DNA of 40,067 bases from assembly GCA_023249105.1 (NCBI GenBank), contig JAHFDG010000036.1:1-40067 (forward strand), given 5' to 3'. This document shows positions 214-39,957 of this stretch, one piece after another. Below the pieces are notes generated by a model. That model did not search any database and had not been told where the DNA came from. It saw only the letters and a list, made by a program, of their open reading frames with translations. How positions within the stretch are numbered: the first letter of the stretch is position 1; the number at the start of each line of letters is the position of its first letter. A program made the position numbers and the translations under genes. The stretch is from Candidatus Methanoperedens sp. (GTDB taxonomy: Archaea > Halobacteriota > Methanosarcinia > Methanosarcinales > Methanoperedenaceae).

Positions 214-228
214 AATAGAATCAGAATC

Positions 229-7164: not shown

Positions 7165-7168
7165 AAGA

Positions 7169-9821: not shown

Positions 9822-9822
9822 A

Positions 9823-10461
9823 ATGAAAATGAGTATTTTGCTCAAAAAGCTTCATCTAGAAAACAAAGAGTTCGTTACGTCAGAGGAGATGGAAGCGTAC
9901 TGCAAATCAATGAAGTTGGACTATGCCACAGTAGTCCGATATTTCATTGCACGAGGCTACGTGACAAGGATATTCAGAGGAATATTCTATGTGAAATCCA
10001 TTGAGGAGCAAAAGCTCGGAAGAAGCAAATACAACCATCTGGAACTCGTGGCAAGAGGGCTGGAGCTTAAGAACGTGAGTAACTGGTATTTTGGGTTGCA
10101 CACTGCACTTAAACTCAATAATATGACTCATGAATATTTTGCAGTGGAGGATGTAATCAACGATACGCTATTCAGGGCAACCCCCATAACTATAGCTGGC
10201 TACAAGTTCAAGTTTATCAAGTTATCGCCTTCGCTGGTTGGTTTTGGAATAAAGAAAAAAGATGAGTTCGTCAGATATTCAGACCCTGAAAAGACTGTCC
10301 TTGACTTCATATACATTTGGAGGTACAATGGAATCCCGGACGACAAGATAGTCCATGATATAGCGGAATGGGCTAAACACGCTTCAAAAGAGAAGTTGAG
10401 GAGCTATGCAAAGAAGTATCCGAAAACAGTGGTGGAGATGGTGGAGAAGGTGATTGGGTGA
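9823..10461 (+). CDS. abiEi: AbiEi-type antitoxin / autorepressor
   Basis: The 212-residue protein has an N-terminal winged-helix region (FVTSEEMEAYCKSM through VRYFIARGYVTRIFRGIFYV, about residues 18-60). It continues with the AbiEi C-terminal core, recognisable from LVARGLELKNVSNWYFGLHTAL and SDPEKTVLDFIY. In type IV AbiE systems this protein neutralises the AbiEii nucleotidyltransferase toxin without a stable complex and represses the operon. The stop overlaps the GTG start of the next gene (GTGA), so the pair is translationally coupled. A strong operator lies immediately upstream. Confidence 0.85.
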   Translation: MKMSILLKKLHLENKEFVTSEEMEAYCKSMKLDYATVVRYFIARGYVTRIFRGIFYVKSIEEQKLGRSKYNHLELVARGLELKNVSNWYFGLHTALKLNNMTHEYFAVEDVINDTLFRATPITIAGYKFKFIKLSPSLVGFGIKKKDEFVRYSDPEKTVLDFIYIWRYNGIPDDKIVHDIAEWAKHASKEKLRSYAKKYPKTVVEMVEKVIG

Positions 10462-11393: not shown

Positions 11394-11408
11394 CAAGCTC
11401 TGCTCTGG

Positions 11409-12194
11409 TTACCATTTAAACAACTCGTTTTCTTTTAAATTCAAAATAAGCCTCCATTTTTTGTTTATTCCATTTTTCTTTTTTGGCAATGTGTTCGATA
11501 AATGAACATACCTGAATTTTCCTATCCTTCCTTCAAGCTTTTTTGTATCCTGTTTTACAAGATCAAGAAGGAAGCCGAGCCTTCTTGCCAGCGAATAATT
11601 TTCCATTCTCAAGGCATAATTTATCATCTTGTCGAAATCAAACTGCTCTTTGTTGTTGTGGAGCGCTTTGAATATTTCTATGATTGAACCAGCATATTCC
11701 TCCCTGTCAAGACAATCGATTATTGTTTTTTCCTTGTCTGCAATGTTAATCTCGGCATCCGATATCTTTATTTTCTCAAAACCAAAAAATTTTCTTTTAC
11801 TGACCCTAACAAACTTGTATAAATATCCTTGAAATTCCAGGGGGCTTTTTCGTTCTGTTGTTGCAGCAAAAACATAAAAAGGCATCTGCTCCGTGAAACC
11901 ATAATATGCAAGCGCTGTCCTGTACGAGACATAATAATTAGTCACCAAATTTGATAAGGTGATAAAAGGATGTTCCGCCCAGCCTTCCCTTCCTTCAAGA
12001 GGCACGATAAGGTATTTTCCCTTTTCGATTCTTTCCAGCCAGCCTTTTTTCTTAAGCCTGTGGAGCATAACCCTTATCTTACCTTCGGAAAATTTGAAAG
12101 ACGCCTTCACATCTTCCACGGTTATGACTTTCCTGTTTTTTATTGCGAAAGTCGAAAGCAGGTCATACTCCTGTTTTGATAGGGATTTAATCAT
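11409..12194 (-). CDS. orphan AbiEi-like transcriptional regulator
   Basis: The 261-residue protein has an N-terminal winged helix (ITVEDVKASFKFSEGKIRVMLHRLKKKGWLERIEKGKYLIVP, about residues 19-65). An AbiEi-like body follows (VSYRTALAYYGFTEQ and NIADKEKTIIDCL). It is unlike the AbiEi at 9823 in most positions and has no AbiEii partner next to it on its own strand. It converges on the AbiEii gene with a gap of only 15 nt. A near-perfect 37-bp palindrome covers its upstream region. It may be an antitoxin that lost its toxin or a regulator for the divergent nuclease gene. Confidence 0.8.
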   Translation of the reverse strand: MIKSLSKQEYDLLSTFAIKNRKVITVEDVKASFKFSEGKIRVMLHRLKKKGWLERIEKGKYLIVPLEGREGWAEHPFITLSNLVTNYYVSYRTALAYYGFTEQMPFYVFAATTERKSPLEFQGYLYKFVRVSKRKFFGFEKIKISDAEINIADKEKTIIDCLDREEYAGSIIEIFKALHNNKEQFDFDKMINYALRMENYSLARRLGFLLDLVKQDTKKLEGRIGKFRYVHLSNTLPKKKNGINKKWRLILNLKENELFKW

Positions 12195-12198
12195 TTTA

Positions 12199-12235
12199 AT
12201 ACATCATAATTACATATTATGTAACTATTATGTAT
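12199..12235. promoter_or_regulatory. 37-bp near-perfect palindrome, probable operator
   Basis: The sequence is symmetric around position 12217, with 16 of 18 base pairs matching. The core is TTACAT-ATT-ATGTAA (12210-12224), flanked by ATACAT (12199-12204) and ATGTAT (12230-12235). It lies 5 nt upstream of the orphan AbiEi-like gene and about 90 nt upstream of the divergent nuclease gene. A TATA-like TTTATAAAG follows at about 12242. It is well placed to control either or both genes. Confidence 0.7.
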
Positions 12236-12325
12236 CATAGTGTTTATAAAGCTATCTTAATCATCTTTCAAAACAGTCAGAAGTAGGCAAAATTATTCTT
12301 CAAATACAACTAATGAGGTATCAAG

Positions 12326-13591
12326 ATGGTTGACTACGAAAGAATTCAATTTATCATACAGGCTTATAAAAATGACCCCGAAAGCGTATACAATACCTGG
12401 TTCATCAACAATGAAGCAAGGTTAAAAGCCTTTGGAGCGATTCGGAGAGGCGTTGAGCAGGTCATAAAGGACATCAAAGAGAATACTTTCCCTACCGATT
12501 TTAAGGGTTCTTCCCTTGAAGTAGTCTTAACCGCCATAACTGAGCAAAAACAAGTCTTTGAAGGAGCCGCTCATCCATTTTACTGGAAACCAAAACTCAG
12601 AATCCCGGATATTTATGAGAACGATACAAATAAATCAGTTTTCGGCCAATTCCTGGAATCATGCCTTAAAGCCAGCAGAGAGGAACAGATCATCAAAGAG
12701 ATCATCAAACTGAAGCAACAAAATATTAAAGGACTGGGTCCATCGGTGGCAAACATTCTGTACTTTATCCATCCAACAATTATCCCGCCATTTAACACGG
12801 CCATGGTAAATGGGTTTAATTTATTATTCAAAGAAAAGAAAAAGCTGGGTTCCTGGGATGATTATCTGGAAATGCGGGATACCATTCTACAGGTAAATGA
12901 CAAATTTAAGAATCTGCTATCGAAGGACGTGGGGGCAATTTCGGGATTGCTTTTTGATATCGGTGTAGGAAAAGTTGTGGTGGATGAAAATGCTGAGATT
13001 GTAATAGAAAAAGAGGACAAAAAAAGAAAAGAACTTCTGAAAAAAAGGCATGATGAAGTCCGGGCTGAGATGGAAGAAGAGAACATGCACACAAAAATCC
13101 AATATTTACTCATGAAGATTGGAAAATCTCTCAATTACGATGTCATTGCGGCTTCAAATGATCGGACAAAGTCATATAACAATGAAAATTTTTCGTTCAT
13201 TTCTTTACCAAAACTACCTGAGATAGAGGTTGGAGATGAGGTAAAGAAAACGATTGCTCTTATTGATGTAATCTGGTTTGAAAAAGGCACCAATAAACTT
13301 GTGAGTGCCTATGAGATAGAAAAAAGCACATCAATTTATTCAGGTATCCTGCGTTTGACGGATTTGGCGCTAACTCTACCAAATTCAGAAAAGATATCGC
13401 TCTACCTGATTGCTCCCGAACAAAGAGAAAAGGAAATTATAGCACAATTGAAAAGACCGTCCCTTATAGCGAAAGAAGGTATTAAAATATCATATATTTT
13501 ATTCTCCGAACTGTGCATGCATTGCGATTCTATTTGCAAGTTCGGGGATGATTATACTATCATGGAAAAGGTCGCAAAGTGTATAAAATGA
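12326..13591 (+). CDS. putative HhH plus PD-(D/E)XK nuclease (restriction-like)
   Basis: The 421-residue protein has a helix-hairpin-helix-like segment at about residues 133-150 (NIKGLGPSVANILYFIHP), set within a helical N-terminal half. A charged linker (220-255) leads to a C-terminal nuclease-like domain. There ALIDVIWF supplies Asp314 and AYEIEKSTSIYSGILRLTDL supplies Glu330, Glu332 and Lys333, the D...ExEK pattern of PD-(D/E)XK folds. The combination suggests a DNA endonuclease, perhaps a restriction or defence effector. No methyltransferase is adjacent. It is divergent from the orphan AbiEi-like gene across a 37-bp palindrome. A ribosome-binding site (GAGGT) precedes the ATG. The function is inferred from motifs only. 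Confidence 0.65.
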   Translation: MVDYERIQFIIQAYKNDPESVYNTWFINNEARLKAFGAIRRGVEQVIKDIKENTFPTDFKGSSLEVVLTAITEQKQVFEGAAHPFYWKPKLRIPDIYENDTNKSVFGQFLESCLKASREEQIIKEIIKLKQQNIKGLGPSVANILYFIHPTIIPPFNTAMVNGFNLLFKEKKKLGSWDDYLEMRDTILQVNDKFKNLLSKDVGAISGLLFDIGVGKVVVDENAEIVIEKEDKKRKELLKKRHDEVRAEMEEENMHTKIQYLLMKIGKSLNYDVIAASNDRTKSYNNENFSFISLPKLPEIEVGDEVKKTIALIDVIWFEKGTNKLVSAYEIEKSTSIYSGILRLTDLALTLPNSEKISLYLIAPEQREKEIIAQLKRPSLIAKEGIKISYILFSELCMHCDSICKFGDDYTIMEKVAKCIK

Positions 13592-27185: not shown

Positions 27186-27572
27186 TCATTTTGTTTGGAT
27201 CCCTCGTGTATTCCAGTGGTTGACCTTTAATAGAAACTTATGCCATGATGACGCCAGAATCAAAATAGCCAGCATTATCACTGCTAATTTCAAATAATAC
27301 AATAAATAAAAAATGTTCCAACCAAATGGTGTTGAGGGTAATCCAAAATGTTCAGCCAACTCAACATATAAACTATGTAAGCCAATTAATGCCCCAGTAA
27401 CAAGAACTAATTTGAAATTAGTCTGCAAGAATGATCTATTCATAGTTACAGCGACACCTATACTAGAAGAAGAGATTTTATTCCATAGCATCCAGCATCT
27501 ATACGCATAAAACGCTCCAATGCTTATAAATATCAGAGAAATTATAATTCCGACCAAGGAAATGTTGCTCAA
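27186..27572 (-). CDS. integral membrane protein of unknown function, four helices
   Basis: The 128-residue protein has hydrophobic segments at about residues 6-26, 52-70, 84-102 and 103-112 (SLVGIIISLIFISIGAFYA, FKLVLVTGALIGLHSLYVEL, IFYLLYYLKLAVIMLAILIL). His residues lie at the membrane boundaries (GLHSLYVELAEHFG, SSWHKFLLKVNHW) and could bind haem or metal, though no family is recognised. It is divergent from the DOMON gene with about 180 nt of AT-rich sequence between them, so it may share regulation with the cytochrome block. Confidence 0.6.
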   Translation of the reverse strand: MSNISLVGIIISLIFISIGAFYAYRCWMLWNKISSSSIGVAVTMNRSFLQTNFKLVLVTGALIGLHSLYVELAEHFGLPSTPFGWNIFYLLYYLKLAVIMLAILILASSWHKFLLKVNHWNTRGIQTK

Positions 27573-27753
27573 TTTCTATATCCTCCTTTTTGCATCAACT
27601 AAATAATACTTCGCTCTTAAGCTGTTGTTGGTTTGAATTAGTTAAGTTAAAGCTGTTTTTTGTTAAATTTAGTTAAATTGCATTTATTAGGTATTTTCTT
27701 TTATTTTCTATAGCACAAAGAACAAAAAGACAAACAAATATTGTTTATATTAC

Positions 27754-28584
27754 ATGAAAAGAAACCCCTCAACCCAGGTAGCAATGAAGTCTCTTTTTTC
27801 CACGTATTCGAAAAGGATGTATTTGAAAGGCATCGCAGTAATGTTGTTTTTGCTTTCTTTTGCCAGCGTTAGCTCTGCTTTCCATGAAAGCATACCAAGC
27901 ATTATACCAAGTATAGATGGACAAATTCAGGAGAATGAATATCAAAACCACTACAGGGACACCAAAATAAACATGGATGTTTACTGGACGCTGTATAAGG
28001 AAAATATATATCTGGCACTGAGAAGCCACGCTAAAGGGTGGATGGGAATCGGCATAGACCCTACAGGCTCTCTGATGCAAGGAGCGGATATAATTCTGGG
28101 ATATGTGAAAGACGGTAAACTGTTTATCCAGGATAATTTTGCCAATTCAGCCGTAAACCGCGCTCCTGATACCGTTCTTGGCGGAAAAAATGACATTCTG
28201 GAATCTGCTGGTTCCGAAAGTGACAAAGGTACAGTTATCGAGTTTAAAAGGAAACTCAATACCACAGACAGTTTTGACAGGGCTTTAACGGATAATGAGT
28301 ATAAAGTCCTGTTAGCATACTCAGAATCAGATGACCTGACCAGCTACCATCCAGTAAAATCAACGGCATTTATAAATTTCTTTTCAGGCAATGTACGGAA
28401 TGAAGATACAGATGATGTAGGGAAGGAAGGCAGCATCGTAAAAACCCAAAATCCAGCAACCGATTCCATCCCAGCCGAAAAGGATCGGTACCAATCTTTC
28501 CTTACCATGCTTACCGGAGTAATATCAATTGCAGGCATAACAATTGCTTTGCTTATTATTCCGGAAAGGGGGAGAAGTAAATGA
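27754..28584 (+). CDS. membrane-anchored DOMON-domain protein (possible b-type haem carrier)
   Basis: A signal-type helix (about residues 24-42, GIAVMLFLLSFASVSSAF) leads to a DOMON domain at about 55-215. It shows VYWTLYKENIYLALRSHAKGWMGIGIDP, then GADIILGYV and KVLLAYSESDD. DOMON domains bind haem b or sugars extracytoplasmically. Met97 (GWMGIG) and His199 (SYHP) sit where axial haem ligands occur in haem-binding members. A C-terminal helix (TGVISIAGITIALLIIP) anchors it. The stop overlaps the next start (ATGA). The TATA-like TTTATATT at about 27742 is close to this ATG, so the ATG at 27784 may be the true start. Confidence 0.8.
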   Translation: MKRNPSTQVAMKSLFSTYSKRMYLKGIAVMLFLLSFASVSSAFHESIPSIIPSIDGQIQENEYQNHYRDTKINMDVYWTLYKENIYLALRSHAKGWMGIGIDPTGSLMQGADIILGYVKDGKLFIQDNFANSAVNRAPDTVLGGKNDILESAGSESDKGTVIEFKRKLNTTDSFDRALTDNEYKVLLAYSESDDLTSYHPVKSTAFINFFSGNVRNEDTDDVGKEGSIVKTQNPATDSIPAEKDRYQSFLTMLTGVISIAGITIALLIIPERGRSK

Positions 28585-29183
28585 CTCATCTACACACGAT
28601 TTCTGCCGAATTGCATACAGGAATGCTTGTCCTGGCATTCATTTCTATTTCACTTAAAATAATTGGAGATAAACTGGGAAAATTCCCAAAGGCAACCCAG
28701 GTTCTTGAGCAGACCGCCTATGTTTCAGCACTGACCGGGTTCTTGTTTCTTATAGTCAGTGCTATAACCGGGTTCACTCAAACCTGGCCAAGGGAGGCTT
28801 TGCTTGCTTCTCCTTTAGTTCTGAACAAGATACTGTTCACGGAATTCGCCATAGTCTTCTGGACGATATTCCTGCTGATCAGGTGGAAGTACGGAGCAGA
28901 TTTATGGAAGAGCTTGAAGCTGAAAACTCTGTATGTTTCAATGGCTCTGGGAGGATTTTTAAGCATAACGCTGACCGGTTCAATGGGGGGGCATGTAGCC
29001 AAGAAAGAGAGCCTGCTTGATCTCTTTTTGCATAAATCGGGAATAAACACCCACGTACCTTTTACCCTGCCTGAAACATGGATAGTTCCAATACTGGTTT
29101 TTATTTTTTCGATTTTAATTATATCCATATTGCTCAGAAAGAAGTATAAAATAGCAAGGGAAGGTGCTATACACGACTCATGA
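28581..29183 (+). CDS. multi-spanning membrane protein with conserved-looking His, DUF2231-like
   Basis: The 200-residue protein has five hydrophobic segments (about residues 14-26, 46-65, 82-102, 116-131 and 168-185). His3, His5 and His12 lie at the start of helix 1, and the GSMGGHVAKK motif comes after helix 4. This resembles the layout of DUF2231-type membrane proteins, which may carry haem b. It is translationally coupled to the DOMON gene by ATGA. A membrane quinone- or haem-linked partner passing electrons to the DOMON protein is a testable idea, not a demonstrated role. Confidence 0.65.
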   Translation: MTHLHTISAELHTGMLVLAFISISLKIIGDKLGKFPKATQVLEQTAYVSALTGFLFLIVSAITGFTQTWPREALLASPLVLNKILFTEFAIVFWTIFLLIRWKYGADLWKSLKLKTLYVSMALGGFLSITLTGSMGGHVAKKESLLDLFLHKSGINTHVPFTLPETWIVPILVFIFSILIISILLRKKYKIAREGAIHDS

Positions 29184-29589
29184 TATCGCTGCACACCGTA
29201 TCGAGAACGTGTATAGTGTAAATACGGTAACAGAAGAAATGCTCAAACACACATTAAACGACTTAAAAAATGTTGGAGGCATTGAAGAATTGGCAGTAGT
29301 AAGCAGAGACGGTTTACTCTTCTGCTCAACCGTATCCCAAAAACAACACGCTGAAAAATTTGCAGCCATGTCAGCTACCTTGATGGGCGCGGCAGAGACT
29401 GCAACATCAATGCTTGGAAAAAGCATTCCTGATAGAGTAATCGTGGAATCAAAACACATGAAGATAATCGGAACATGTGCAGGACCAAAAGCCTTGCTCA
29501 TGGTTATGACCGAACCATACGCTGGTCTTGGATTAATTCTGAGTGAGGTGGCGAAAGCATCCGAGAAAATAAAACGGGTCTTAGGATGA
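29164..29589 (+). CDS. roadblock/LC7 domain protein
   Basis: The 141-residue protein carries a roadblock/LC7 fold: LNDLKNVGGIEELAVVSRDGLLFCST, then MSATLMGAAETATSML and RVIVESKHMKIIGTCAGPKALLMVMT. Such proteins bind and regulate small Ras-like GTPases (MglB type) or organise complexes. The open frame begins at a GTG at 29164 inside the previous gene. GTG 29209 or ATG 29239 may be the real start, since the domain begins near residue 30. It lies between the redox membrane genes and the cytochromes and has no signal peptide, so it acts in the cytoplasm. Confidence 0.85.
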   Translation: MLYTTHDIAAHRIENVYSVNTVTEEMLKHTLNDLKNVGGIEELAVVSRDGLLFCSTVSQKQHAEKFAAMSATLMGAAETATSMLGKSIPDRVIVESKHMKIIGTCAGPKALLMVMTEPYAGLGLILSEVAKASEKIKRVLG

Positions 29590-29844
29590 TATAATGGTGG
29601 CATGCTTAGAAATTGCGCTAAATAGGATAGATACGGAAAATGCTCGCTTTCATGTGCGAAGCCGCTGGCGCTACTCATGCCTGAATCAACAGGACATCAT
29701 GAATTTACTTTCGATTTCTGGATATAGGTTTAAAAGTTTTAAGCAAGCAGTGTGTTTATTTACATTTTATAAATCACAATCCAATTAAAAGAGTAGTAAT
29801 ATACTTTACATGACTTGAAAAGATAAATGAAAGGATAGGTAATC

Positions 29845-32800
29845 TTGAGACAATCAATCGCACTAACAGCGAGCATCGCGATATTGGTACTGGTAGTTCT
29901 TCCAGTATATGCCACAGATAGCAATTTTTCTTACGACTTAAATGCCTCAAATACTACCAATACCACTAACTCAACCGACCATCCCCATTTAACTTATGAC
30001 TTAAATACTTCCAACACCACCAACTCCTCGACCAATCATACCCACTTAATTTCAGACTCGAACACCTCTAATACCACTAACTCAACCAACCACACCCACT
30101 CGAATACAACTGTAAATTCTTCAGGTCCATCGCACGCCCATGCAAACTTGACTTTAGCAGCTACCTTTATACAGAGCAACAATGAGGAAGTAACAGTTAC
30201 CCTTGAGGATTACGAGAAAAATAATCCTTTAACTGTTATGCCGCCTGGCATGCCTCTCAGATTTTTTAAAATAAACGCACAGAACATATCTTACGAATCC
30301 ATCGCCCTTAATGCAACCTACTGTGAAATGGATATAAAGGGTACAGATGAGGAAAAACTCGCTATTTTCAGGTATGAAGCCAATAATTCAACATGGGTTA
30401 TGCTGCCTACAAACGTAAATAAGGAAGAAAACATACTTAATGCATCTGTCAATTCCCTATCTTTATTTGCAGTCAGTTCTCATTCTGAGAATACTTCAGC
30501 ACATATCCATAACGATACAGCCCAAGCTGGGAAATCACACAACTGCGAAAACGTGGAGGATGAACCTATATCTGCCTCTTTCATTTCTGGAGAGTCTAAA
30601 CTTACTCTTGAAATAGAAAGTGACAATACATCAGACTCCTCACCGCCCGGGAGCCTGATTAAATTTTTCAGCATATCAGCCAGGAACTTTTCTTATAGCG
30701 GCGTGAGCATTAAAGCGGGTTACAACGATGCAGTATTAAAAGGAGCTAATGAAAGTAGCCTTTCAATCCTCCATTATACTAATTCAACATGGGTCGTGCT
30801 GCCAACAGAAGTAAACACAGAAGAAAATACTTTGAAGGCGTCCGTGGATTCCTTATCTCTATTTGCAATTTCGTCTTTTTCCGGGACGAGCACGGGCAGT
30901 ATGGGTATGGGAATAGTATCTAACTGTCTGCGTTGCCACGGAAGCAACAGCACTGCATTTGGTGAAGGTATGATGGGAAGCATTCCGAAAGTGAATGAAT
31001 CCATAATGAACCTGAGCATCCATTTGAACCTGAACAATGCAAGTTCTAACCTCAATCAGGCATGCTGGGCATGCCATGCCAACTCAACAACGCCTCCCAA
31101 AAAACATCCTCCGATGTTCAAAGCATCAGCCCTTACCTGTTCTACCTGCCACGTAAACGGCATCGGCAAATTCAATCCTCCGCGAACAACAGAGCATACC
31201 CTGCACGCAGCCAATATCACCGTGAACGCCACATGCCAGCTCTGCCACGGCAAACCGCAGATGATTAATTTCAACGGAAGTACTACAAATTCAACCATTT
31301 CTCATTACGGCAAGAACAGGACTGACATGCTGGATTTAAACAAGACCAGCACTAACTGCTCCTACTGCCACCAGAACCCTGCTTCTGAGTTCTCGGATGT
31401 TTTCAATAAGACCTCAAGGACGAACATAACCCACGATGGCGGCATAAGCTGTTCATCATGTCATGGCACGGGCAGGTTGCACAATTCAACACTCACGAAT
31501 ATGCAAGGCTTTAGTTTATCCAATTGCGTACAGTGCCACGGAACAAGCGGCTTTGCTCCGAAGAAAATAGATGAAAACGTGATAAACCTGAGCATCCATG
31601 CAAACCTGAACAACGCAAGCTCTAACATTAACAGGGCATGCTGGGCATGCCACTCCAATTCCAGTAATGCACCTAACACGCATCCAAGCATATCCATGCC
31701 AGCAAATACCTGCAGTACTTGCCATGTTAATAATACTGTAATCTTCAGTGCACCAAAGACAACAGAACATACCCGCCATGCAGTCAATATCACCGTGAAC
31801 GCTACATGCCAGCTCTGCCACGGCAAACCGCAGATGATTAACCTCAACGGGAGCACTCTGAATTCAACCATTTCTCATTACGGCAAGAACAGGACTGGCA
31901 TGCTGGATTTAAACAAGACCAGCACCAGCTGCTCCTACTGCCACCAGAACCCTGCTTCTGAGTTCTCGGATGTTTTCAACAAAGCTTCAAGGACGAACAT
32001 AACCCACAATGGTGATCTTAGCTGTTCCTCATGCCACGGCATCGGAAGGCTGCACAACTCAACACTCGCGAATATGCGGGGTTATAGTTTATCGAATTGC
32101 GTACAGTGCCACGGGACAAGCGGCTTTGCCCTGAATAAAGTAAGCGAATCATCCATCAACCAGAGTATTCATGCAAACCTGAACAATGCAAGCTCTAACC
32201 TCAATCAGGCATGCTGGGCATGTCATTCAAATATAGTTACGACACCCGAGAAGCATCCGGATATTACTAAACTGCCCAACTCCTGCTCTAAATGCCACAT
32301 CGACGGAGCTCTTAATTTGACACAAAAACAAAAAGGTGTCCAAACAGTGCATGTATCTTCGCATAGCCCGGAAAGCCAAAAGATTAGGACTCCTGCCTGT
32401 ACCCTCTGCCACAGCAATGATGTCCTTGCTTCAGGGAAAACAATAAATTCCACTGTATCTCATTACGCTCAATACCCGAAAGTGGATACCAGGGATTGCG
32501 TAAGCTGCCACCAGAATAAAGAAATCGGGAAAAAGTGGGGGAGCCCACCTGACCCGATAGAGACAATTCGCCTCTCGAATGTTGAAAAGAAGCTGGTCTC
32601 AGACGATATCTGGAAAATTAATCAAAATTACAGCATAGCTATCAGCGAGGTAGATAAAGAGGGTCAGTCAGCTTGGCTTGAACTGTATTATAATGGGAAA
32701 TTGATACAGAAAGAGCTGGTTCCGGAAGGCGGCAGTTTCAAGTACGACACAAAGCTGGTGCAGGAAGGGGGCAATAAGACCATAATCGATCTCAGGATAG

Positions 32801-33249
32801 ATGACATCTTCTATGGAGGTACTGTAAGCTTAATAACATTTAGCGGGCTCTCGCCAAAGCATATACATACCGAAACAAGCAGCGTACAGTGCTATGCCTG
32901 CCATGTTAAAGAATACATGTCCGACATGCCTGATGGGCAGAGGTATTTTGTACTCAAAAAAGAGAGCCAGAATGTCACGTTAAATCAACTGGATATTGAT
33001 TTTACTAGCTCCGAAAGGAAAACATTGTACTCCAACAATTCATGGGATATGGGTAGCGGTTATAAACTCTCGATTAAAGATTTCAGCCTGAATCGGGAGT
33101 ATGTATGGCTTGTACTTACACAAAACGACATTCTAGTAAAAGAGGATTTTGTCAGGGAAGGGGATTATTTCACATATAACACAACATTAAACGGCGTAGA
33201 TATCACGATGTTCCGTCTGAAAGTCGCCAACTTGTTCGTGAAAGGATGA
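29845..33249 (+). CDS. 18-haem c-type cytochrome with PGF-pre-PGF and S-layer domains
   Basis: A signal peptide (SIALTASIAILVLVVLPVYA) precedes about 65 residues rich in Asn, Thr and His with many N-x-S/T sequons. Two PGF-pre-PGF-type domains follow (about residues 110-215 and 242-350; WVMLPTNVNKEEN, WVVLPTEVNTEEN). Eighteen CxxCH motifs then run from residue 361 to 1016 in tandem modules of six (CWACH, CSTCH, CQLCH, CSYCH, CSSCH, CVQCH). Two Methanosarcina-type S-layer domains cover about 909-1000 and 1034-1134. Fused S-layer and multihaem proteins are known in ANME-2 and are thought to pass electrons through the cell coat. The start is a TTG with GGATAGGT upstream. A 3-nt gap precedes the next cytochrome. 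Confidence 0.93.
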   Translation: MRQSIALTASIAILVLVVLPVYATDSNFSYDLNASNTTNTTNSTDHPHLTYDLNTSNTTNSSTNHTHLISDSNTSNTTNSTNHTHSNTTVNSSGPSHAHANLTLAATFIQSNNEEVTVTLEDYEKNNPLTVMPPGMPLRFFKINAQNISYESIALNATYCEMDIKGTDEEKLAIFRYEANNSTWVMLPTNVNKEENILNASVNSLSLFAVSSHSENTSAHIHNDTAQAGKSHNCENVEDEPISASFISGESKLTLEIESDNTSDSSPPGSLIKFFSISARNFSYSGVSIKAGYNDAVLKGANESSLSILHYTNSTWVVLPTEVNTEENTLKASVDSLSLFAISSFSGTSTGSMGMGIVSNCLRCHGSNSTAFGEGMMGSIPKVNESIMNLSIHLNLNNASSNLNQACWACHANSTTPPKKHPPMFKASALTCSTCHVNGIGKFNPPRTTEHTLHAANITVNATCQLCHGKPQMINFNGSTTNSTISHYGKNRTDMLDLNKTSTNCSYCHQNPASEFSDVFNKTSRTNITHDGGISCSSCHGTGRLHNSTLTNMQGFSLSNCVQCHGTSGFAPKKIDENVINLSIHANLNNASSNINRACWACHSNSSNAPNTHPSISMPANTCSTCHVNNTVIFSAPKTTEHTRHAVNITVNATCQLCHGKPQMINLNGSTLNSTISHYGKNRTGMLDLNKTSTSCSYCHQNPASEFSDVFNKASRTNITHNGDLSCSSCHGIGRLHNSTLANMRGYSLSNCVQCHGTSGFALNKVSESSINQSIHANLNNASSNLNQACWACHSNIVTTPEKHPDITKLPNSCSKCHIDGALNLTQKQKGVQTVHVSSHSPESQKIRTPACTLCHSNDVLASGKTINSTVSHYAQYPKVDTRDCVSCHQNKEIGKKWGSPPDPIETIRLSNVEKKLVSDDIWKINQNYSIAISEVDKEGQSAWLELYYNGKLIQKELVPEGGSFKYDTKLVQEGGNKTIIDLRIDDIFYGGTVSLITFSGLSPKHIHTETSSVQCYACHVKEYMSDMPDGQRYFVLKKESQNVTLNQLDIDFTSSERKTLYSNNSWDMGSGYKLSIKDFSLNREYVWLVLTQNDILVKEDFVREGDYFTYNTTLNGVDITMFRLKVANLFVKG
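31009..32520 (+). repeat. tandem in-gene repeat, about 576 bp units encoding six haem sites
   Basis: Units begin at 31009, 31585 and 32158, with spacings of 576 and 573 bp. The third unit is incomplete. The anchor GCATGCTGGGCATG appears at 31060, 31636 and 32209. Some stretches are nearly identical between units, for example CCAGCTCTGCCACGGCAAAC, which points to recent duplication or gene conversion. This explains the six-haem periodicity. Confidence 0.9.
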
Positions 33250-33255
33250 ACAGTG

Positions 33256-35448
33256 ATGGAAGAAATGAGAAAATATCTGCTTTTTATTGTTCTTGCTATC
33301 CAGATGATTAATTTATCATCTGCTGCTAACGATACTAATCCGGATATAATAGTTGTTATTGAGGATGCACGCCACATCTCAAACGAGACTATTGTAATTG
33401 GATATAATGAAACTATAAGCAATTATACAGGCTCCGAACTGAGTTCTGGTCAGGATGTACTGGTCGGTAGTGCTCCCAGAACGTTTCACGAGTCTGTTCT
33501 AACCAATGGTAGTTTTAGTCCAGATTGTACAAGCTGCCACCGCCTTGGAGGAGTTGCGCCAAAGCAGATCGATATTGAAGCATTTAAAAAGAGCGTTCAT
33601 GCAAACCTCAATAACAGAACCAATAATACAGTGGCAGTCGATCCTGTAAATAAAGCATGCTGGGCATGTCACGGCAACGGCAGCAAACCTCTGGGTCATC
33701 CTGAAGAATATAAATCCCCGAGATCATGCGCTTCATGCCATTCATTTACCGCTGCCTATAATGCCCCATTAGTGAAAGGACATACAAAGGCGGGAGAAAA
33801 TCTAACTGTAAAAATAAGCTGCGAGAGCTGCCATGGCAACAGTCTCATGAAAATTGGATTAAATAATGCCAAGGCTAACGTTTCACATTATGGTGGAAAG
33901 GTAATATACAACTCGACAAATTGCCTCTCATGCCATGGAGACTCGATTAATGGCACAAAATGGGGAAATGCACCACGGGTATATTCCCACGCCAGGAACG
34001 GTTCGTGTACAGACTGCCACGGTGTGGGTCGGGTCAAAACGCTCCACGATGCAAACCTGACAATTCCTGCTGAAAGAACATGTATCAAGTGCCACACACG
34101 AGAGAACGCTGTAAAAAAATACGGGGCAGCGGCAATCATTCGCACTCATTACCCGGGCGCGCCTGAGGGGCGGGCAAACACGACTCTTGTAAATGCCAGT
34201 TTTACGTGCTCGCTGTGCCATAACGTAGCTAATACCACTCTCCATAATCGTTCCCTTACTAAAAATCTCTTATATACGAGCAATATTTCACAGAATAATG
34301 TTTCACAAAGCTTCTGCTATCAGTGCCACGGTATCGAAGGAAGCTTTCCCTACAAGCCATCTGTCCAGATTCCTCGCCTTATCCACGGCAACCAGAGTGA
34401 ACACGTTGCCGTGGGAATGAAGATAAACTGCGAGACATGCCACGATTCCAACAGGGTGAGCAGATTCCACAAACCTTCAGCCGCATGGGATAGACCTGTC
34501 GGAAGAATAGCAGATAGTAAAAGTGCCCAGTGTACAGACTGCCATAATACCCATATAAAACAGACAATCCCAAACGTTACCTGCTCAACATGCCACGCCG
34601 GTTATGATTCCTCCCACTACAGTGTCCTGGCAGTAGAAAAGATTAATAAGACCCTCACCTGCGGCGCCTGCCATAACGAGATAAAAAGTCAGTTCCATAA
34701 CCTGACACGACCTGATAAAGACTTTTTAGAACCCCAAATAAAAACAAAGGATACAAGAATTTTATCATGCGACTCATGCCATAACGCTACAGGAAAAGAG
34801 AAATTCCATTACAGCGAGTTCCCCGCAGGAACCATCCAGTCGCCAGGCTGGTATAACTGGAGCAACGGTAGTAGAGTGAATAAATGCTCGGTCTGCCATG
34901 TGAAATATGGCGGAGAAGCGCCATTTAATGCTACAAATCTGACCAATCCCCAGCACAGGGCCGCAACCAACTGTACCCTCTGCCATGGCGGAGATACTCC
35001 CATTGCTCTGCATGTGCTCCAGAAATCAAATACAGCGCCTTATGTCAGAGATATAATTCTAATTCCTCAGAAAAGTTACGCAGGCGAGAACATTTCCATC
35101 AGTGTTCTGGCAGTCTCAGGGTGGGATGCTAATATCACGAACGTAGAGTATTTCATTGACATGGTTGGCGAGGGAGGAAAAGGTAGAAAGCTGGCTCTTG
35201 GGAAAGAGCTTGTTGGAGGGCAGGTGAGAGAGGCTTTTGCAGATATCGATACCTCTGACCTTAAGGAGGGCACACATATAGTTTCAGTGCATGCACAGGA
35301 TTCGAAAGGTAGATGGGGAGATGTGCAGCCTGCGCCGCTTGTGATAGCTAAAAAGACGAACCCCTGGTTTTTATTCAAACACTGGGAACTGATATTTTTA
35401 ATTATGGGTATATTGATATTAATTTACATATTTAAAAAAAATAAGTGA
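33256..35448 (+). CDS. 16-haem c-type cytochrome, membrane anchored
   Basis: A signal peptide (KYLLFIVLAIQMINLSSAA) is followed by 16 CxxCH motifs from about residue 91 (CTSCH) to 573 (CTLCH). An Ig-like domain (VRDIILIPQKSYAGENISI, then VEYFIDMVG and THIVSVHAQDSKGRWGD) follows. A C-terminal helix (WELIFLIMGILILIYIF) with a Lys tail anchors it, so the haems face outward. The first three haem sites resemble those of the 18-haem protein (ACWACHGN, SCASCH). I start at the ATG at 33256; a GTG just before it and an ATG at 33265 are alternatives. It precedes CcmF by 6 nt. It could relay electrons from the membrane to the S-layer cytochrome. Confidence 0.93.
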   Translation: MEEMRKYLLFIVLAIQMINLSSAANDTNPDIIVVIEDARHISNETIVIGYNETISNYTGSELSSGQDVLVGSAPRTFHESVLTNGSFSPDCTSCHRLGGVAPKQIDIEAFKKSVHANLNNRTNNTVAVDPVNKACWACHGNGSKPLGHPEEYKSPRSCASCHSFTAAYNAPLVKGHTKAGENLTVKISCESCHGNSLMKIGLNNAKANVSHYGGKVIYNSTNCLSCHGDSINGTKWGNAPRVYSHARNGSCTDCHGVGRVKTLHDANLTIPAERTCIKCHTRENAVKKYGAAAIIRTHYPGAPEGRANTTLVNASFTCSLCHNVANTTLHNRSLTKNLLYTSNISQNNVSQSFCYQCHGIEGSFPYKPSVQIPRLIHGNQSEHVAVGMKINCETCHDSNRVSRFHKPSAAWDRPVGRIADSKSAQCTDCHNTHIKQTIPNVTCSTCHAGYDSSHYSVLAVEKINKTLTCGACHNEIKSQFHNLTRPDKDFLEPQIKTKDTRILSCDSCHNATGKEKFHYSEFPAGTIQSPGWYNWSNGSRVNKCSVCHVKYGGEAPFNATNLTNPQHRAATNCTLCHGGDTPIALHVLQKSNTAPYVRDIILIPQKSYAGENISISVLAVSGWDANITNVEYFIDMVGEGGKGRKLALGKELVGGQVREAFADIDTSDLKEGTHIVSVHAQDSKGRWGDVQPAPLVIAKKTNPWFLFKHWELIFLIMGILILIYIFKKNK

Positions 35449-35454
35449 TCTGTT

Positions 35455-37467
35455 ATGGATATCGGAAATACGCTTTTATTGACAGCACTCTTCGCTGCCG
35501 TGGCTTCAGTATTGCTGTGTAAACGTAACAATTATTATTTCTTATGGATGCTTCGCTGGACGTTTTTCTCTATTTCATTAGCAGTTTTGCTTCTGGTTTA
35601 CTACTTTATCTCAAAGGACTTCGGTATAGATTATGTATATATGTACAGCGGGGACCAACCCCTCTTATACAGGATAGCTGCTATCTGGGCAGGAAAGGAG
35701 GGAATACACTTACTGCTGGCATGGGCTACCATGCTGTGTATTTTATTTTTCTATACAAAAAACAAAGAAAATCATGGATTCACTCAGAAAACACTATACA
35801 TAGCCTTGATGATTGAAATTTTAATACTGATAATCACTCCCGCCGATTCGCCTTTTAAACCGATAAAGGGAGCATTTAATACAGATGTCTTATCCGGGCA
35901 CGGGTTAAGTCCTAAATTTATTAACCCATGGTTTTTGGTCCACCCGCCCCTGCTGGTTATGGCATATGCGGCAAGTATCATCCTCTTTGCTTCCGCAATA
36001 GTATATCTGTACTCTGGAGAAAAAGATTGGGTCAAGACGGCAAGATCGTGGGGGAGATTTTCCTGGCTTATGTTATCGCTGGGAATGGCGACAGGAGGAT
36101 TATGGGCATATGAGATTATTGAATGGAACGGGTTCTGGAGATGGGATCCCGTTCAGTCAGGTGCTCTCGTTATCTGGCTTGTCCTGACAGCCGCCCTGCA
36201 TGCGATTGTAAGGCACGGGCGAAACGATCAGGAATATGGACTAACCGCCCCGCTGCTGGCTGCATCGGTATTTATTCTGAATATCTACGTAATGTTCATC
36301 ACGCGAAAAGGAGTGCGCGGCTCGGAGCACAACTTTATAGGAAGCGCTGTGTGGTACATTTTGCTCGCCGGGATGTTATTCGCAATAATCGCAGTGTTAT
36401 ATTTGTTTTTAAAGAGAACGCGACCCTGTTCTGGCAAAGTTACTCAAAACCTGAAGCCTGCGTCGCTAAGTTCAATGCGAAGTTCATTCCACGTTACTAT
36501 TCTACTATTGTGTACCCTGGCATTCATACCTTTATGGGGCATCTTCCATTCGCTAATCTCAGAAAAGATTTTTGGCGAATTTATCCAGGTTCCAGAAGAG
36601 GTCTATAATTTCTGGAGTTATCCCATAATTCTATTGCTGACGCTGCTGACCGGCTATTGCATGCTCCAGGGATTAGTAAAGCGAAAAAGTCTCATCTACA
36701 TAATGCTGGTCTGGATTTTCGTCGGAACAGTGACTGCTTTTGTGCCAAAAACGCCTACCCTGCTTAGTTCTGCTTCAGGATTCTATCAGCAATCAACGCT
36801 TCTCGTGCAATCAACAGGGTCTATTTCTATGATATCTTATGTATCAGTATCCCTTTTCGCTATCACAGGAATAATTATCCGGTTTTTGTACACCAAAAAT
36901 CGTTTCTCATATAAGAGCATAGGCACAGGATTAATCCACGCGGGGTTTATTCTGATCGTGCTGGGAGCTGTTATATCCGCATCTTTCAGTAAAGGCGTAT
37001 CTCTCGAATCCACTCTTAAAGAATTAAATACTTTTCAGAATATAGACTCTACATGGAACGCCAGGATAACAGGCGCCAGCATCGTGAATACCCTGGATGG
37101 ATGGGAACAGACACTGAATCTGAATATATATAAAAACGGGGATGCGCATGGATCAGGCACAGTAAGCTTAACGAAAAGTGACCGATCTGGCTATTTCCAT
37201 AGAGTCCTTATTCATCGAACCGTTTTCACAGATATATTAATACATTTTGCTTCGGATGCGATGAGTCAGTATTCAACCCAGCTAAGTGTAAAAGTTATTC
37301 CCTTGATAAATATTCTCTGGGGAGGAATTCTATTGATGATCGGCGGAATTATTGTTCTGATAAACCCGAAGTTTTTCCTCAAAAATTATTGGGAATTTTT
37401 TATTAACTTAAACCAAAAACTGCTTAAAGAGGAAAGGAATTTTTATATGCGGAAAAATGGGAGGTAA
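35455..37467 (+). CDS. ccmF: CcmF-type cytochrome c haem lyase
   Basis: The 670-residue polytopic protein has about 14 membrane helices and the CcmF/CcsA-family tryptophan-rich motif WNGFWRWDPVQSG near residue 224. His residues flank membrane segments (PWFLVHPPLLVMAYA and RHGRNDQEYG). CcmF attaches haem to CxxCH motifs outside the membrane. It is adjacent to the two cytochromes it most likely matures. The C-terminal part (residues 505-620) has an extracytoplasmic beta-rich segment (WNARITGASIVNTLDGWEQ), as in CcmF. The start is the ATG at 35455. Only CcmF is local; CcmA/B/C/E partners are not in the window. Confidence 0.92.
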   Translation: MDIGNTLLLTALFAAVASVLLCKRNNYYFLWMLRWTFFSISLAVLLLVYYFISKDFGIDYVYMYSGDQPLLYRIAAIWAGKEGIHLLLAWATMLCILFFYTKNKENHGFTQKTLYIALMIEILILIITPADSPFKPIKGAFNTDVLSGHGLSPKFINPWFLVHPPLLVMAYAASIILFASAIVYLYSGEKDWVKTARSWGRFSWLMLSLGMATGGLWAYEIIEWNGFWRWDPVQSGALVIWLVLTAALHAIVRHGRNDQEYGLTAPLLAASVFILNIYVMFITRKGVRGSEHNFIGSAVWYILLAGMLFAIIAVLYLFLKRTRPCSGKVTQNLKPASLSSMRSSFHVTILLLCTLAFIPLWGIFHSLISEKIFGEFIQVPEEVYNFWSYPIILLLTLLTGYCMLQGLVKRKSLIYIMLVWIFVGTVTAFVPKTPTLLSSASGFYQQSTLLVQSTGSISMISYVSVSLFAITGIIIRFLYTKNRFSYKSIGTGLIHAGFILIVLGAVISASFSKGVSLESTLKELNTFQNIDSTWNARITGASIVNTLDGWEQTLNLNIYKNGDAHGSGTVSLTKSDRSGYFHRVLIHRTVFTDILIHFASDAMSQYSTQLSVKVIPLINILWGGILLMIGGIIVLINPKFFLKNYWEFFINLNQKLLKEERNFYMRKNGR

Positions 37468-37471
37468 ATAA

Positions 37472-39118
37472 ATGACAAAGATAAAAAATATTGCATATAT
37501 GGCATTGGTAATCTTACTTGTGTCAATTTTTCTGGGCTGTGTAACCAAAGAACAACCAAAAACAACTCAAAAGAATGAAGGCATGGGAAAAGAGATGGAG
37601 AAAGGCACGGGTATGGAGCCTGCTCAAAAAATCAATCTTATAGATAGGAACATTGCCGGCCTGGATAAAGCAAAAACATCTCAGATTATAGAACTTCCTG
37701 ATGGCGCAGTATTTCAGCTTGAAGCAAAACCAGTTGTAAAAAGCATCAATGGAAATGCTATTCGCATGTTAGGCTATAACTCTCAGATTCCAGGACCTCT
37801 GATAAAGGTCAGGCAGGACAGCAGCATCTCTGTTAATTTTACAAACAACCTTGATATGGAAACCACAGTTCACTGGCACGGCATAAGACTGGGAAATAAG
37901 TTCGATGGCGTTCCTGAGGTTACGCAAAAACCTGTCAAGCCGGGAGAAAGCTTCCTTTACAAGCTGGATTTCCCTGACGAAGGCGTCTATTGGTATCATC
38001 CTCACATGAGAGATGATATAGGGCAGGAACTGGGGTTATACGGCAATATTCTCGTTGAACCTCGCTCCCAAAACTACTTTAATCCTGTGGATAAGGAAGT
38101 AGCTCTATTCCTTGACGATATCAAAATCGTAAACGGTGATGTTGAGCCATTTAGCAAAGATTATGCACGCTTCGCGCTGACAGGACGGTTCGGAAATCTA
38201 ATGCTAACCAATGGAGAGACGGACTACCAACTCAACGTGAAAAAAGGTGATGTGGTGCGATTCTATCTCACGTCTTCTTCCAACACAAGACCGTTTAACT
38301 TCTCAATAGAAGACCACAAGATGAAATCTGTTGAGATGAAATTAGTGGGAGGAGACTCCGGGAAATACGAAAAAGAATCGTTTGTGGACTCTATAATTCT
38401 CAGCGTCTCAGAGCGGTATATTGTAGAAGTTCTCTTTGATAAACCTGGCACGTTCAGGCTTCTTAATAACATTCCTGTAAATTACACTACTGCGAAAAGA
38501 ACATACGTGCTTGGCACGGTCAATGTTTCTGAAGCTACTTCTGCAAGCCAAAAACCTGACTTCTTTGTTCTTAAAGAAAATACTGAGGTTATCGACAGTA
38601 TCAAGCCTTTCAAAAAATATATCTCTGCAAAACCAGACTATGAAATAGATCTCACCATAGATATTATGGGTGACCTTGCAAAAGAGATTGCAAGTATGCC
38701 CAGGGCTCTGGAACCTATCGAGTGGGGCGAGGATGAAAATATGGCATTGATGAACAGCATGTCCACCAGTGAAAATGTGAAGTGGATGCTCAAGGATAAA
38801 GCCACTGGAAAAGAGAATCCCAACTACCAGATGAAAGTAGGCGATGTTAAGAAGATCAGGATTTTCAATGATCCAAAGTCGATGCATCCGATGCAGCACC
38901 CGATGCACTTACATGGGCAGCGCTTCCTTGTTCTGGCTCAGGATGGAAAAACCAATGACAACCTTGTGTGGAAGGACACGGTGCTTGTGCCTGCAGGAAG
39001 CGTTGTGGACATTCTCGTGGAATTCACTAACCCTGGAGATTGGCTGATGCACTGCCACATACCAGAACACGCAGAGGCAGGCATGATTGCCTCCTTTAAT
39101 GTAAGTCAAGACCGGTGA
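37472..39118 (+). CDS. multicopper oxidase, lipoprotein
   Basis: The N-terminus has a lipobox-like IFLGC with Cys23, so it is probably a lipid-anchored surface protein. All four copper-binding motifs are present: HWHG (134-137), HPH (176-178), HPMQHPMHLHG (472-482), and HCHIPEHAEAGM (527-538) with type 1 ligands His527/533, Cys528 and Met538. The length and motifs fit three-domain laccase/CueO-type oxidases. These use O2 or other oxidants, so the acceptor in an anaerobic archaeon is unclear. A Met-rich segment (GEDENMALMNSMSTSENVKWM) resembles copper-sensing helices of CueO. GGGAGG precedes the ATG. It is directly downstream of CcmF. Confidence 0.93.
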   Translation: MTKIKNIAYMALVILLVSIFLGCVTKEQPKTTQKNEGMGKEMEKGTGMEPAQKINLIDRNIAGLDKAKTSQIIELPDGAVFQLEAKPVVKSINGNAIRMLGYNSQIPGPLIKVRQDSSISVNFTNNLDMETTVHWHGIRLGNKFDGVPEVTQKPVKPGESFLYKLDFPDEGVYWYHPHMRDDIGQELGLYGNILVEPRSQNYFNPVDKEVALFLDDIKIVNGDVEPFSKDYARFALTGRFGNLMLTNGETDYQLNVKKGDVVRFYLTSSSNTRPFNFSIEDHKMKSVEMKLVGGDSGKYEKESFVDSIILSVSERYIVEVLFDKPGTFRLLNNIPVNYTTAKRTYVLGTVNVSEATSASQKPDFFVLKENTEVIDSIKPFKKYISAKPDYEIDLTIDIMGDLAKEIASMPRALEPIEWGEDENMALMNSMSTSENVKWMLKDKATGKENPNYQMKVGDVKKIRIFNDPKSMHPMQHPMHLHGQRFLVLAQDGKTNDNLVWKDTVLVPAGSVVDILVEFTNPGDWLMHCHIPEHAEAGMIASFNVSQDR

Positions 39119-39134
39119 TTGAAAAATTCACCGG
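39112..39134 (+). terminator. hairpin at the multicopper oxidase stop, possible terminator
   Basis: CCGGTGA (39112-39118) pairs with TCACCGG (39128-39134) around a 9-nt A-rich loop. The left arm includes the stop codon. No clear T-run follows, so terminator function is uncertain. Confidence 0.3.
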
Positions 39135-39172
39135 CCTATCTCATAAGACCATCAAAAGGCTGGATATGCCTG

Positions 39173-39259
39173 GTTTCAACACCTGCAACATCCTGATTTG
39201 AGGTTGTGCTTGGATTGCTGGGCACAGGTCTTGCTTATCAGATGAGACGCAAACAGTGA
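39173..39259 (+). pseudogene. second orphan CTERM sorting tail, with internal stop
   Basis: The frame reads VSTPATS, a stop (TGA at 39194-39196), then FEVVLGLLGTGLAYQMRRKQ. It is collinear with the tail at 26923-27063, with about 80-85% identity over 86 nt by eye. The Gly codon of the GFE motif has become TGA. It is a dead copy of the same 3' end of a surface-protein gene. Confidence 0.6.
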
Positions 39260-39330
39260 GCGAGTTTTATGTGTTGGTTAGAAAGCTCATCTACATCCTG
39301 GAGTTCACCTTGGAATCAACTTTGACTTTA

Positions 39331-39957
39331 TTACTCTCGAATGAAATTCCCATGCCAGGTATGATACCATACCTGTCCTGAGTAACCATTCACATCCAGC
39401 ATACCGTACATTTTGTTATCCTTCTTTACATCAAAATGGTAGTAGCCATAAAACACTCCGCTATCTTCTGCCTTCGTGCCGGGAACCCGGGAATCCAAAA
39501 ACTGCTGGGCAAATCCTTTCGCTTGTTCCTTTGTTACTGTCATCGTTCCTGCCTGTAATCCAACCATACCGTATTTCGTGTTCCACATCATAGTGGGACC
39601 CATTTCAGGAGAAATAATACCGCTGTATTTATCAATGACTACCTGAAATGCCTTGGTTCCTGTACTTTTCTCCTTATATTCAGCATAGAAGTTGAACTCC
39701 CATTCCTCAAGGTCACCGAGTTCCAGGTCAGGAGCATTCTGAGCAGACAGGTATTTCTTTGTAATATCCTTTGCTTGCTCCAGGTTAACCAGGCTTCCAT
39801 TTGAATTATATGGGACGCCGCCGCTTATGAGCATGTTTCCTCCCATCATCTGCATCATGTTCCCCATCATGCTGGCGCCCATCATCCCGGAACCCATCAT
39901 ACCGCCAATCCCTCCATAGCCACTCCATTGAGATGAATACCCTCCATAAGGATTTGT
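39331..39957 (-). pseudogene. Met-rich PepSY-like protein, 5' end missing
   Basis: From the first ATG (39900) 189 residues are encoded: MMGSGMMGASMMGNMMQMMGG, then two PepSY-like repeats (LEQAKDITKKYL with VVIDKYSGIIS, and TKEQAKGFAQQFL with GMLDVNGYSGQVWYHTWHG). The frame stays open upstream to about 39957 with GYSSQWSGYGGIGG, the kind of sequence that follows a signal peptide. It then runs into a TAA at 39973 without any start. A signal peptide is therefore missing. The adjacent transposase end suggests an insertion removed it. Met/His-rich PepSY proteins often bind copper, which fits the neighbouring multicopper oxidase. Expression from the ATG at 39900 would give a cytoplasmic fragment. 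Confidence 0.7.

Follow-up and report, generated by a model that had tools for sequence, protein, structure and literature searches.

A probable split extracellular electron-transfer conduit in Candidatus Methanoperedens, with an optional DOMON/membrane protein pair

The window analysed here, a stretch of 40,067 nucleotides from the genome of a Candidatus Methanoperedens sp., carries a run of forward-strand genes, called from open reading frames and assigned to domains by Pfam and NCBIfam profiles: a DOMON protein, a five-helix membrane protein (5-TM protein), a roadblock/LC7 protein, an 18-haem S-layer cytochrome, a 16-haem cytochrome, a CcmF haem-lyase paralogue and a multicopper oxidase (MCO), with a methionine-rich PepSY-type gene on the reverse strand behind them. 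An earlier note on this DNA had placed the genes at these positions, which the ORF list and Pfam bear out, and its counts of 18 and 16 haems are the same by CxxCH motif count. It had also described short gaps: this holds for most junctions (-4 bp for DOMON/5-TM, where the reported ATGA coupling is seen as a 4-bp overlap, 3 bp between the cytochromes, 6 bp for cytochrome/CcmF and 4 bp for CcmF/MCO), but not for the 255 bp between the roadblock gene and the S-layer cytochrome. In case of the roadblock/LC7 protein (29209–29589, + strand; PF03259, 1e-14), the listed ORF begins at 29164, yet its true start is probably codon 16 (29209), and therefore the gene need not overlap the membrane protein gene; it is an accessory gene that likewise precedes the S-layer cytochrome in genome G016 and is present as a fused remnant in G014. 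The PepSY-type gene lies where the earlier note saw it (39331–39900, - strand), but its PepSY match (E 0.0036) is under the Pfam cut-off, and it is probably 5'-truncated, since the 45–50 residue N-terminus of its relatives in G014 and G017, including the signal/membrane helix, is missing and an in-frame stop lies upstream.

The S-layer cytochrome (29845–33249, + strand; 18 CxxCH motifs) matches PF07752 in two stretches (8.6e-18) as well as TIGR01567 (3.4e-19). Its layout runs from a signal peptide through an N-terminus of about 350 haem-free residues (no haem up to residue 361, with a weak PGF-pre-PGF match) and haems 1–17 to a C-terminal S-layer duplication; no peptidase M6-like domain was matched in the N-terminus by Pfam or NCBIfam, and a TM scan revealed no C-terminal transmembrane helix. 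Haem 18 is found at residue 1016 in the linker of the S-layer duplication, behind its first half (913–1002) and 118 residues from the C-terminus, and a linker haem is placed similarly in G021 and in G486, a genome of the ANME-like family f3. The second cytochrome (33253–35448, + strand; 16 CxxCH motifs) exhibits one C-terminal transmembrane helix (706–724). Within the S-layer cytochrome gene, a 6-haem block is present in two tandem copies (30937–32100, + strand; residues 365–560 and 561–752) with an identity of 75% at the protein and 81% at the DNA level, and relatives with a complete S-layer cytochrome gene display 12 haems: the 18 haems evidently arose by tandem duplication of this block in a 12-haem ancestor, an example of how such wires lengthen. 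The order proposed earlier, from the anchored 16-haem protein to the S-layer cytochrome, agrees with this anatomy, with the anchor on the former and the S-layer domain on the latter. The 16-haem cytochrome would be tethered at the outer face of the cell membrane via its C-terminal helix and would hand electrons, in a direction and along a path that we infer, to the S-layer cytochrome, which the S-layer duplication with its linker haem would set in the plane of the S-layer.

The adjoining gene encodes a CcmF haem-lyase paralogue of the CcmF2 type (35455–37467, + strand; PF01578, 3e-21). Split loci of S-layer cytochrome, 16-haem cytochrome and CcmF were found 10 times in 8 of the 31 Methanoperedens genomes; because it is syntenic at these loci, the core is not a product of chance but a real, conserved unit. 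The genes are split likewise in family f3 (G486, G051, G482, G035, G039), where complete second genes encode 16 haems, and are fused in the same order in family f2 (G058, G054, G485) and in G019, followed by a CcmF with a 4-bp overlap, and also in G011 and G007 with an adjacent CcmF. On alignment, the fused proteins (G011, G019, G058, G054) match the C-terminal part of the S-layer cytochrome and then the 16-haem protein, which is equivalent to the C-terminal portion of ANME fusion proteins of the MHC-B type; by this homology, the core shares ancestry with the fused proteins. The CcmF tree unites all CcmFs encoded beside a cytochrome (99/99) and separates them from those that are not; inside this group, the window-type CcmFs are a clade of their own (100/100) and a sister lineage, the CcmF2 group being recognised here by synteny in a tree built without published reference sequences. 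Nesting of the window-type CcmFs with the Methanoperedens fused-type CcmFs is rejected (AU p 3.7e-7); tree and AU test thus rule out a recent fission of a giant fused Methanoperedens cytochrome as the origin of the window module. The CcmF is probably dedicated to the window's cytochrome pair, to which it would attach the haems.

ANME MHC-A/B proteins are described as containing an S-layer domain with a haem in the linker (PMC9012536). With the ANME MHC-B/CcmF2 system (Chadwick et al. 2022, PMC9012536) the core shares the S-layer duplication with one linker haem, a haem-free N-terminal region, a final membrane anchor, a dedicated CcmF directly downstream and homology across the S-layer, 16-haem and CcmF parts; it differs in being split into two polypeptides with the anchor only on the 16-haem half, in the absence of an M6-like domain match and of a signal peptidase/8xTMH gene, in the addition of the DOMON/5-TM pair and the MCO, and in a CcmF belonging to its own clade. 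The S-layer-crossing cytochrome adjoining an anchored 16-haem cytochrome, as the earlier note had proposed, is accordingly a conserved unit with its own CcmF, as in the proposed ANME conduit. In Ca. M. manganicus, three 12-haem/S-layer proteins were highly expressed during Mn(IV) reduction, as reported by Leu et al. 2020 (PMC7082337), and G021, which likely matches Ca. M. manganicus Mn-1, contains exactly three module copies, two of them with the DOMON/5-TM pair. Compared with these proteins, the window copy has 18 haems through block duplication; the text consulted does not discuss the 16-haem partner, CcmF, MCO or DOMON pair. The 16-haem cytochrome Methanoperedens_00214 of Ca. M. nitroreducens, up 38-fold on soluble iron, may be the module's 16-haem protein (G014 matches the Ca. 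M. nitroreducens genome). The statement that no described system has this gene set hence stands for the exact set but not for the core, which is covered by MHC-B/CcmF2 and by the 12-haem/S-layer proteins: the core is known in kind, here in a two-polypeptide layout, with DOMON/5-TM and MCO added in some strains only. That this locus forms a conduit for extracellular electron transfer, with a split ANME MHC-B/CcmF2 module as its core and the DOMON/5-TM pair as an optional adaptor, we consider fairly probable. Such a conduit touches the open question of how electrons travel from membrane to S-layer in methane-oxidising archaea: in the split form, the anchored 16-haem half and the S-layer half are separate proteins that can be produced and studied one at a time, something that fused proteins of several thousand residues do not permit.

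The three-domain MCO (37472–39118, + strand; three Cu-oxidase Pfams) displays the complete four-copper set of motifs (HWHG 134, HPH 176, HPMHLHG 476, HCHIPEHAEAGM 527), a methionine-rich stretch near 409–430 and a lipobox-like LGC near its N-terminus, whilst relatives have a plain signal peptide. Full-length orthologues are found only beside window-type CcmFs, directly downstream in 6/6 cases; the MCO is absent from three of the ten modules (G016, G021-C27, G019) and undecidable in one. Three cupredoxin domains, complete copper motifs and the methionine-rich stretch are shared with CueO/CopA-type MCOs, but the closest profile, CueO, is reached with 162 bits against an NCBIfam cut-off of 525, so that the protein does not qualify as a CueO equivalog, and it is tied to a cytochrome operon. 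The likely task of the MCO, which is tied to the module, is to oxidise copper(I) or to remove oxygen, outside the main path. That it is instead the terminal acceptor branch of the conduit, where electrons from the cytochromes would reach O2 and oxygen would be scavenged for a strict anaerobe, appears improbable to us: the complete motifs, the constant position behind the conduit's CcmF and a 4-bp gap that suggests co-transcription argue for this, whereas the best profile being that of a cuprous oxidase (though under cut-off), the methionine-rich stretches, the Met-rich/PepSY/DUF302 genes downstream in relatives and the modules lacking an MCO argue against it.

The DOMON protein (27754–28584, + strand; PF03351, E 1e-22, 81.1 bits against a gathering threshold of 32.7) comprises an N-terminal hydrophobic stretch (signal), an extracytoplasmic DOMON domain (73–189) and a C-terminal transmembrane anchor (251–269). 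Residues M109 and H199, which we take to be candidate axial haem ligands by position match to the AIR12/CDH cytochrome domains, are kept in the alignment of every DOMON paired with a 5-TM protein, the His being replaced by Asn in the paralogue L029. The 5-TM protein (28581–29183, + strand) belongs to no Pfam or NCBIfam family; H5, H12, H138, H151, H158 and E10 are invariant in 8 sequences, and by alignment and charge count the five His cluster on the N-terminal/outer side. In cytochrome b561, four helix His pair on both membrane sides, and DOMON-b561 proteins are of the AIR12/CYBDOM type. The window's pair resembles these in coupling an extracytoplasmic DOMON to a multi-helix membrane protein, but consists of two genes, with a 5-TM protein outside the b561 family. 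As its invariant His lie on the outer face only and do not pair across the membrane, the 5-TM protein is not a canonical cytochrome b561, for which there was also no Pfam match; nor is it a known cytochrome b, no sequence match being obtained in Pfam, NCBIfam or the PDB. An AF2 model from the 8 sequences reached a pLDDT of 75.9 (48 with four near-identical sequences), and a Foldseek search with it returned nothing significant, the best hit being STEAP (E 0.08, TM 0.46); TM1 and TM4 look like those of DUF2231 by eye, with an hhalign probability of 21%. For this protein, which the earlier note had suggested checking for haem b, kinship with a known b-type cytochrome is thus not detectable; because its invariant His are also one-sided, haem b and quinol oxidation are functions that we infer.

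A DOMON gene adjoins a 5-TM gene in 8/8 loci from two phyla. In Methanoperedens the pair accompanies 3/10 modules, each time immediately before the cytochrome genes, and is present without a module in G007; no relic was seen in the 7 modules without it, and no copy on viral contigs. The CcmFs of the three pair-bearing modules are not one clade, and three changes are needed on the CcmF tree. Given this distribution, the pair does not belong to the conserved module: it is an optional, separately mobile module. Of the neighbourhood conservation for which the earlier note had called, the core shows synteny but the pair does so only in part, and the proposed DOMON/membrane exit is not a fixed part of the conduit. 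Sysuimicrobiota bacteria carry the pair, always adjacent, beside molybdo- and copper enzymes, with no c-type cytochromes near it in these loci; no literature linking Methanoperedens with DOMON was found. It is unlikely that the pair is a copper/metal-handling module, such as a copper reductase or copper-site assembly system, that does not feed the conduit and keeps company with genes for MCOs, Met-rich proteins, DUF302 proteins and Cu-ATPases. The bacterial loci do have genes for MCO, cupredoxin and DUF302 proteins and for heavy-metal P-type ATPases near the pair; by inspection, a candidate P-type-ATPase-like gene is nearby in G007 and G021-C27, and a DUF326 protein is near in G021-C45; the five outer-face His could bind copper, and STEAP metalloreductases are the closest, albeit not significant, folds. 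However, a molybdopterin oxidoreductase and an ethylbenzene-dehydrogenase-type (haem b) subunit each occur near the pair in one bacterial locus, the DOMON retains Met and His as would be expected of a haem-b protein, and in Methanoperedens modules the pair keeps its place before the cytochromes.

Our best guess is that the pair acts as a single-haem electron adaptor: at the outer face it would draw electrons from the menaquinone pool, the outer His of the 5-TM protein would hold one haem b or a metal site, and a haem b in the DOMON would relay the electrons to the anchored 16-haem cytochrome. More tentatively, it could represent an undescribed plug-in adaptor, leading from menaquinol or metal through a single outer-face haem b and the DOMON haem b to an extracellular partner, which is shared across domains with the Sysuimicrobiota and was joined more than once to the Methanoperedens S-layer conduit. 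Either way, the membrane step gains a new candidate in this pair. For the family, five menaquinone:cytochrome c oxidoreductase groups have been described (Leu et al. 2020, PMC7327174); with these and with the ANME-2a/b Mco, the pair shares the proposed role of a membrane part adjoining a multihaem cytochrome, but the locus encodes neither an NrfD nor an Fe-S protein nor a recognisable cytochrome b, with no Pfam or NCBIfam match to an NrfD-like or b-type cytochrome subunit among the locus proteins. A 12-haem NapC/NirT-type cytochrome, present in 29/31 genomes, beside some modules and in G000 on contig C70, is an alternative quinol donor and counts against DOMON/5-TM in this role. We regard it as rather unlikely that DOMON, roadblock, MCO and PepSY are all bystanders and that only cytochrome–cytochrome–CcmF is functional, fed by the known oxidoreductases or by this 12-haem protein: the modules without a pair or relic, the availability of these donors and the truncated PepSY gene are in keeping with it, but not the position of the pair before the cytochromes in three modules that do not form one clade by their CcmFs, nor the restriction of full-length MCO orthologues to window-type CcmFs. 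As for the optional adaptor that we favour, its occurrence within the genus is restricted to the window's genome and two genomes matching members of a Mn-reducing enrichment, so that a connection with Mn(IV) as electron acceptor can be put to the test.

ORF, domain and haem-motif analysis of the window bore out the ORFs, domains and haem counts behind an earlier note's proposal of an envelope electron conduit, in which electrons were to leave a DOMON/membrane protein pair for a membrane-anchored 16-haem cytochrome and an 18-haem S-layer cytochrome, and perhaps meet a multicopper oxidase (MCO). The short intergenic gaps described there hold from the S-layer cytochrome via the 16-haem cytochrome and CcmF to the MCO (3, 6 and 4 bp in order) and for the DOMON and membrane genes, joined through ATGA, but not after the roadblock gene, where 255 bp lie before the S-layer cytochrome. 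The roadblock start is probably 15 codons inside the listed ORF, and the PepSY ORF, with an in-frame stop upstream, is without the N-terminal membrane segment found in relatives. Conserved synteny, proposed as a check, was found within the genus for the core: the order S-layer cytochrome, 16-haem cytochrome, CcmF occurs in the window and in genomes G014, G008, G016, G017 and G021 (three loci), but of the 31 genus genomes only three hold the DOMON pair, namely the window's own, G021 (two copies) and G007, the last of these without the module.

Every complete relative of the window's S-layer cytochrome carries 12 haems, and the 18 haems of the window derive from a 6-haem block in tandem copy (copies 75% identical in protein, 81% in DNA). 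G021 has exactly three 12-haem/S-layer genes, the same number as reported for Ca. M. manganicus by Leu et al. (PMC7082337). In genome G003 the 16-haem gene is still present along with CcmF and MCO, but the expected place of the S-layer cytochrome, upstream of the 16-haem gene, is taken by other genes. The ORFs there (G003:C10, stretch L033, 15387-16930) resemble by eye pieces of an IS630-type transposase, and the module seems to have been broken by an insertion. G019 holds CcmF plus mere remnants of the cytochromes: at G019:C50 (L062, 9633-12822) CcmF is intact and the cytochrome remnants have no haem and 2 haems, respectively, and a separate fused giant version is found on C42. At G014:C1 (L030, 15171-17981) the signal region of the S-layer cytochrome is fused to the first ~30 residues of a roadblock protein, a deletion scar which suggests that the S-layer cytochrome was formerly preceded by a roadblock gene.

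The core is a split, compact, haem-duplicated version of an already known conduit type. In G011, G019 and, within the stretch read, G007, as well as in three genomes of another family of the order (f2: G058, G054, G485), a single large polypeptide comprises the S-layer part and then the 16-haem part, with CcmF directly behind; the overlap with CcmF is 4 bp in G019 and the f2 genomes. A further family (f3: G486, G051, G482, G035, G039) exhibits a cytochrome split like that of the window, with complete second genes of 16 haems. This cytochrome/CcmF layout is that described for ANME MHC-B with CcmF2 (PMC9012536), and the likeness extends to the S-layer linker with its one haem. In a maximum-likelihood tree all cytochrome-adjacent CcmFs grouped together (99/99), with the window type as a separate clade (100/100); joining the latter with the fused-type Methanoperedens CcmFs was rejected (p-AU 3.7e-7). 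Taken at face value the tree, which contains long branches, would favour the split as the older state.

The DOMON/five-helix (5-TM) pair is the least known part of the locus, and any function assigned to it is putative. Three of the four genus pairs lie a short way ahead of the S-layer cytochrome (in the window the roadblock gene intervenes), whilst that of G007 is near a 12-haem NapC/NirT-type cytochrome (domain call made on the G021 orthologue, 88% identity). Pair presence requires three changes on the CcmF tree, and hence its association with the module was gained or lost repeatedly. Outside the genus, the 5-TM protein was found in none of the other sampled Halobacteriota; it occurs in 4 of 43 Sysuimicrobiota genomes, each time with a DOMON gene directly upstream. 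Neighbours there include a phospholipid-methyltransferase-like gene, a multicopper oxidase, a cupredoxin, DUF302, a P-type ATPase, an ethylbenzene-dehydrogenase-type subunit and a molybdopterin oxidoreductase, and no CxxCH-rich proteins were found near the pair in the loci examined. Its own distribution and these bacterial neighbours indicate that the pair is an independent unit in redox and copper company. In three of the Sysuimicrobiota loci (L067, L068 and L075; Pfam-tested in L067) the methyltransferase-like (PEMT/ICMT) gene is the one immediately before the DOMON gene. The window's genome has a second DOMON gene, in the stretch G000:C127 3317-5139 (L029), with Asn at the predicted haem His; it overlaps a cytochrome b6-like gene (PF13631/PF00033) by 4 bp, so that here the partner of the DOMON is a true cytochrome b.

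Alignment of eight 5-TM sequences revealed H5, E10, H12, H138, H151 and H158 as invariant. The loops carry 13 K/R on the side assigned as cytoplasmic versus 5 on the other, with the same trend but smaller margins in the bacterial homologues; by this charge count the N-terminus is on the outside, and so are all five histidines, on the same face of the membrane as the DOMON. A two-haem, two-sided b561 path is thus not possible; the residues would be compatible with a single haem b, or else a metal site, at the outer face. Searches with the AF2 model (pLDDT 75.9) returned no significant structural match, the best being STEAP reductases (E 0.08), a possible likeness that serves as a lead only.

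All six full-length MCO orthologues in the genus lie directly behind the CcmF of this module, a strong linkage. The window MCO has the full set of copper motifs, and Met-rich proteins, PepSY and DUF302 follow it in relatives; a CueO-like task, either the oxidation of copper(I) or the removal of oxygen, is a likelier role for the MCO than a main part in respiration.

Upon the established operon structure, ancestry, conservation and domain layout, an electron path can be proposed in which known MK:cytochrome c oxidoreductases or the 12-haem NapC-type protein, with the DOMON/5-TM pair as a further route in some strains, would bring menaquinol electrons to the anchored 16-haem cytochrome; these would then pass along the S-layer cytochrome and, once at the surface, could reduce Mn(IV) or Fe(III) or be taken up by electrodes or partners. 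The published expression of the Ca. M. manganicus 12-haem/S-layer proteins on birnessite (PMC7082337) supports conduit use with Mn(IV). A 12-haem cytochrome with NapC/NirT N-terminus, present in 29 of the 31 genus genomes, is a candidate for the conduit's quinol oxidase; G021, G016 and G007 have second copies of it, which adjoin either the split module or the DOMON pair. Copies of this type lie at L025 6794-7906, L027 14109-15221, L061 4413-5546 and G000:C70 2367-3440.

A further cytochrome ORF, at G007:C49 (L135) 2-12592, starts outside the stretch read; its 4196 residues within the stretch hold at least 98 CxxCH motifs, and it may be the protein with 113 haems that has been reported for Ca. 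M. manganireducens. At 9823-12194 the window has a pair of neighbouring ORFs and, on the opposite strand, a third one; by eye these resemble AbiEi/AbiEii-type toxin-antitoxin genes and a further AbiEi-like protein.
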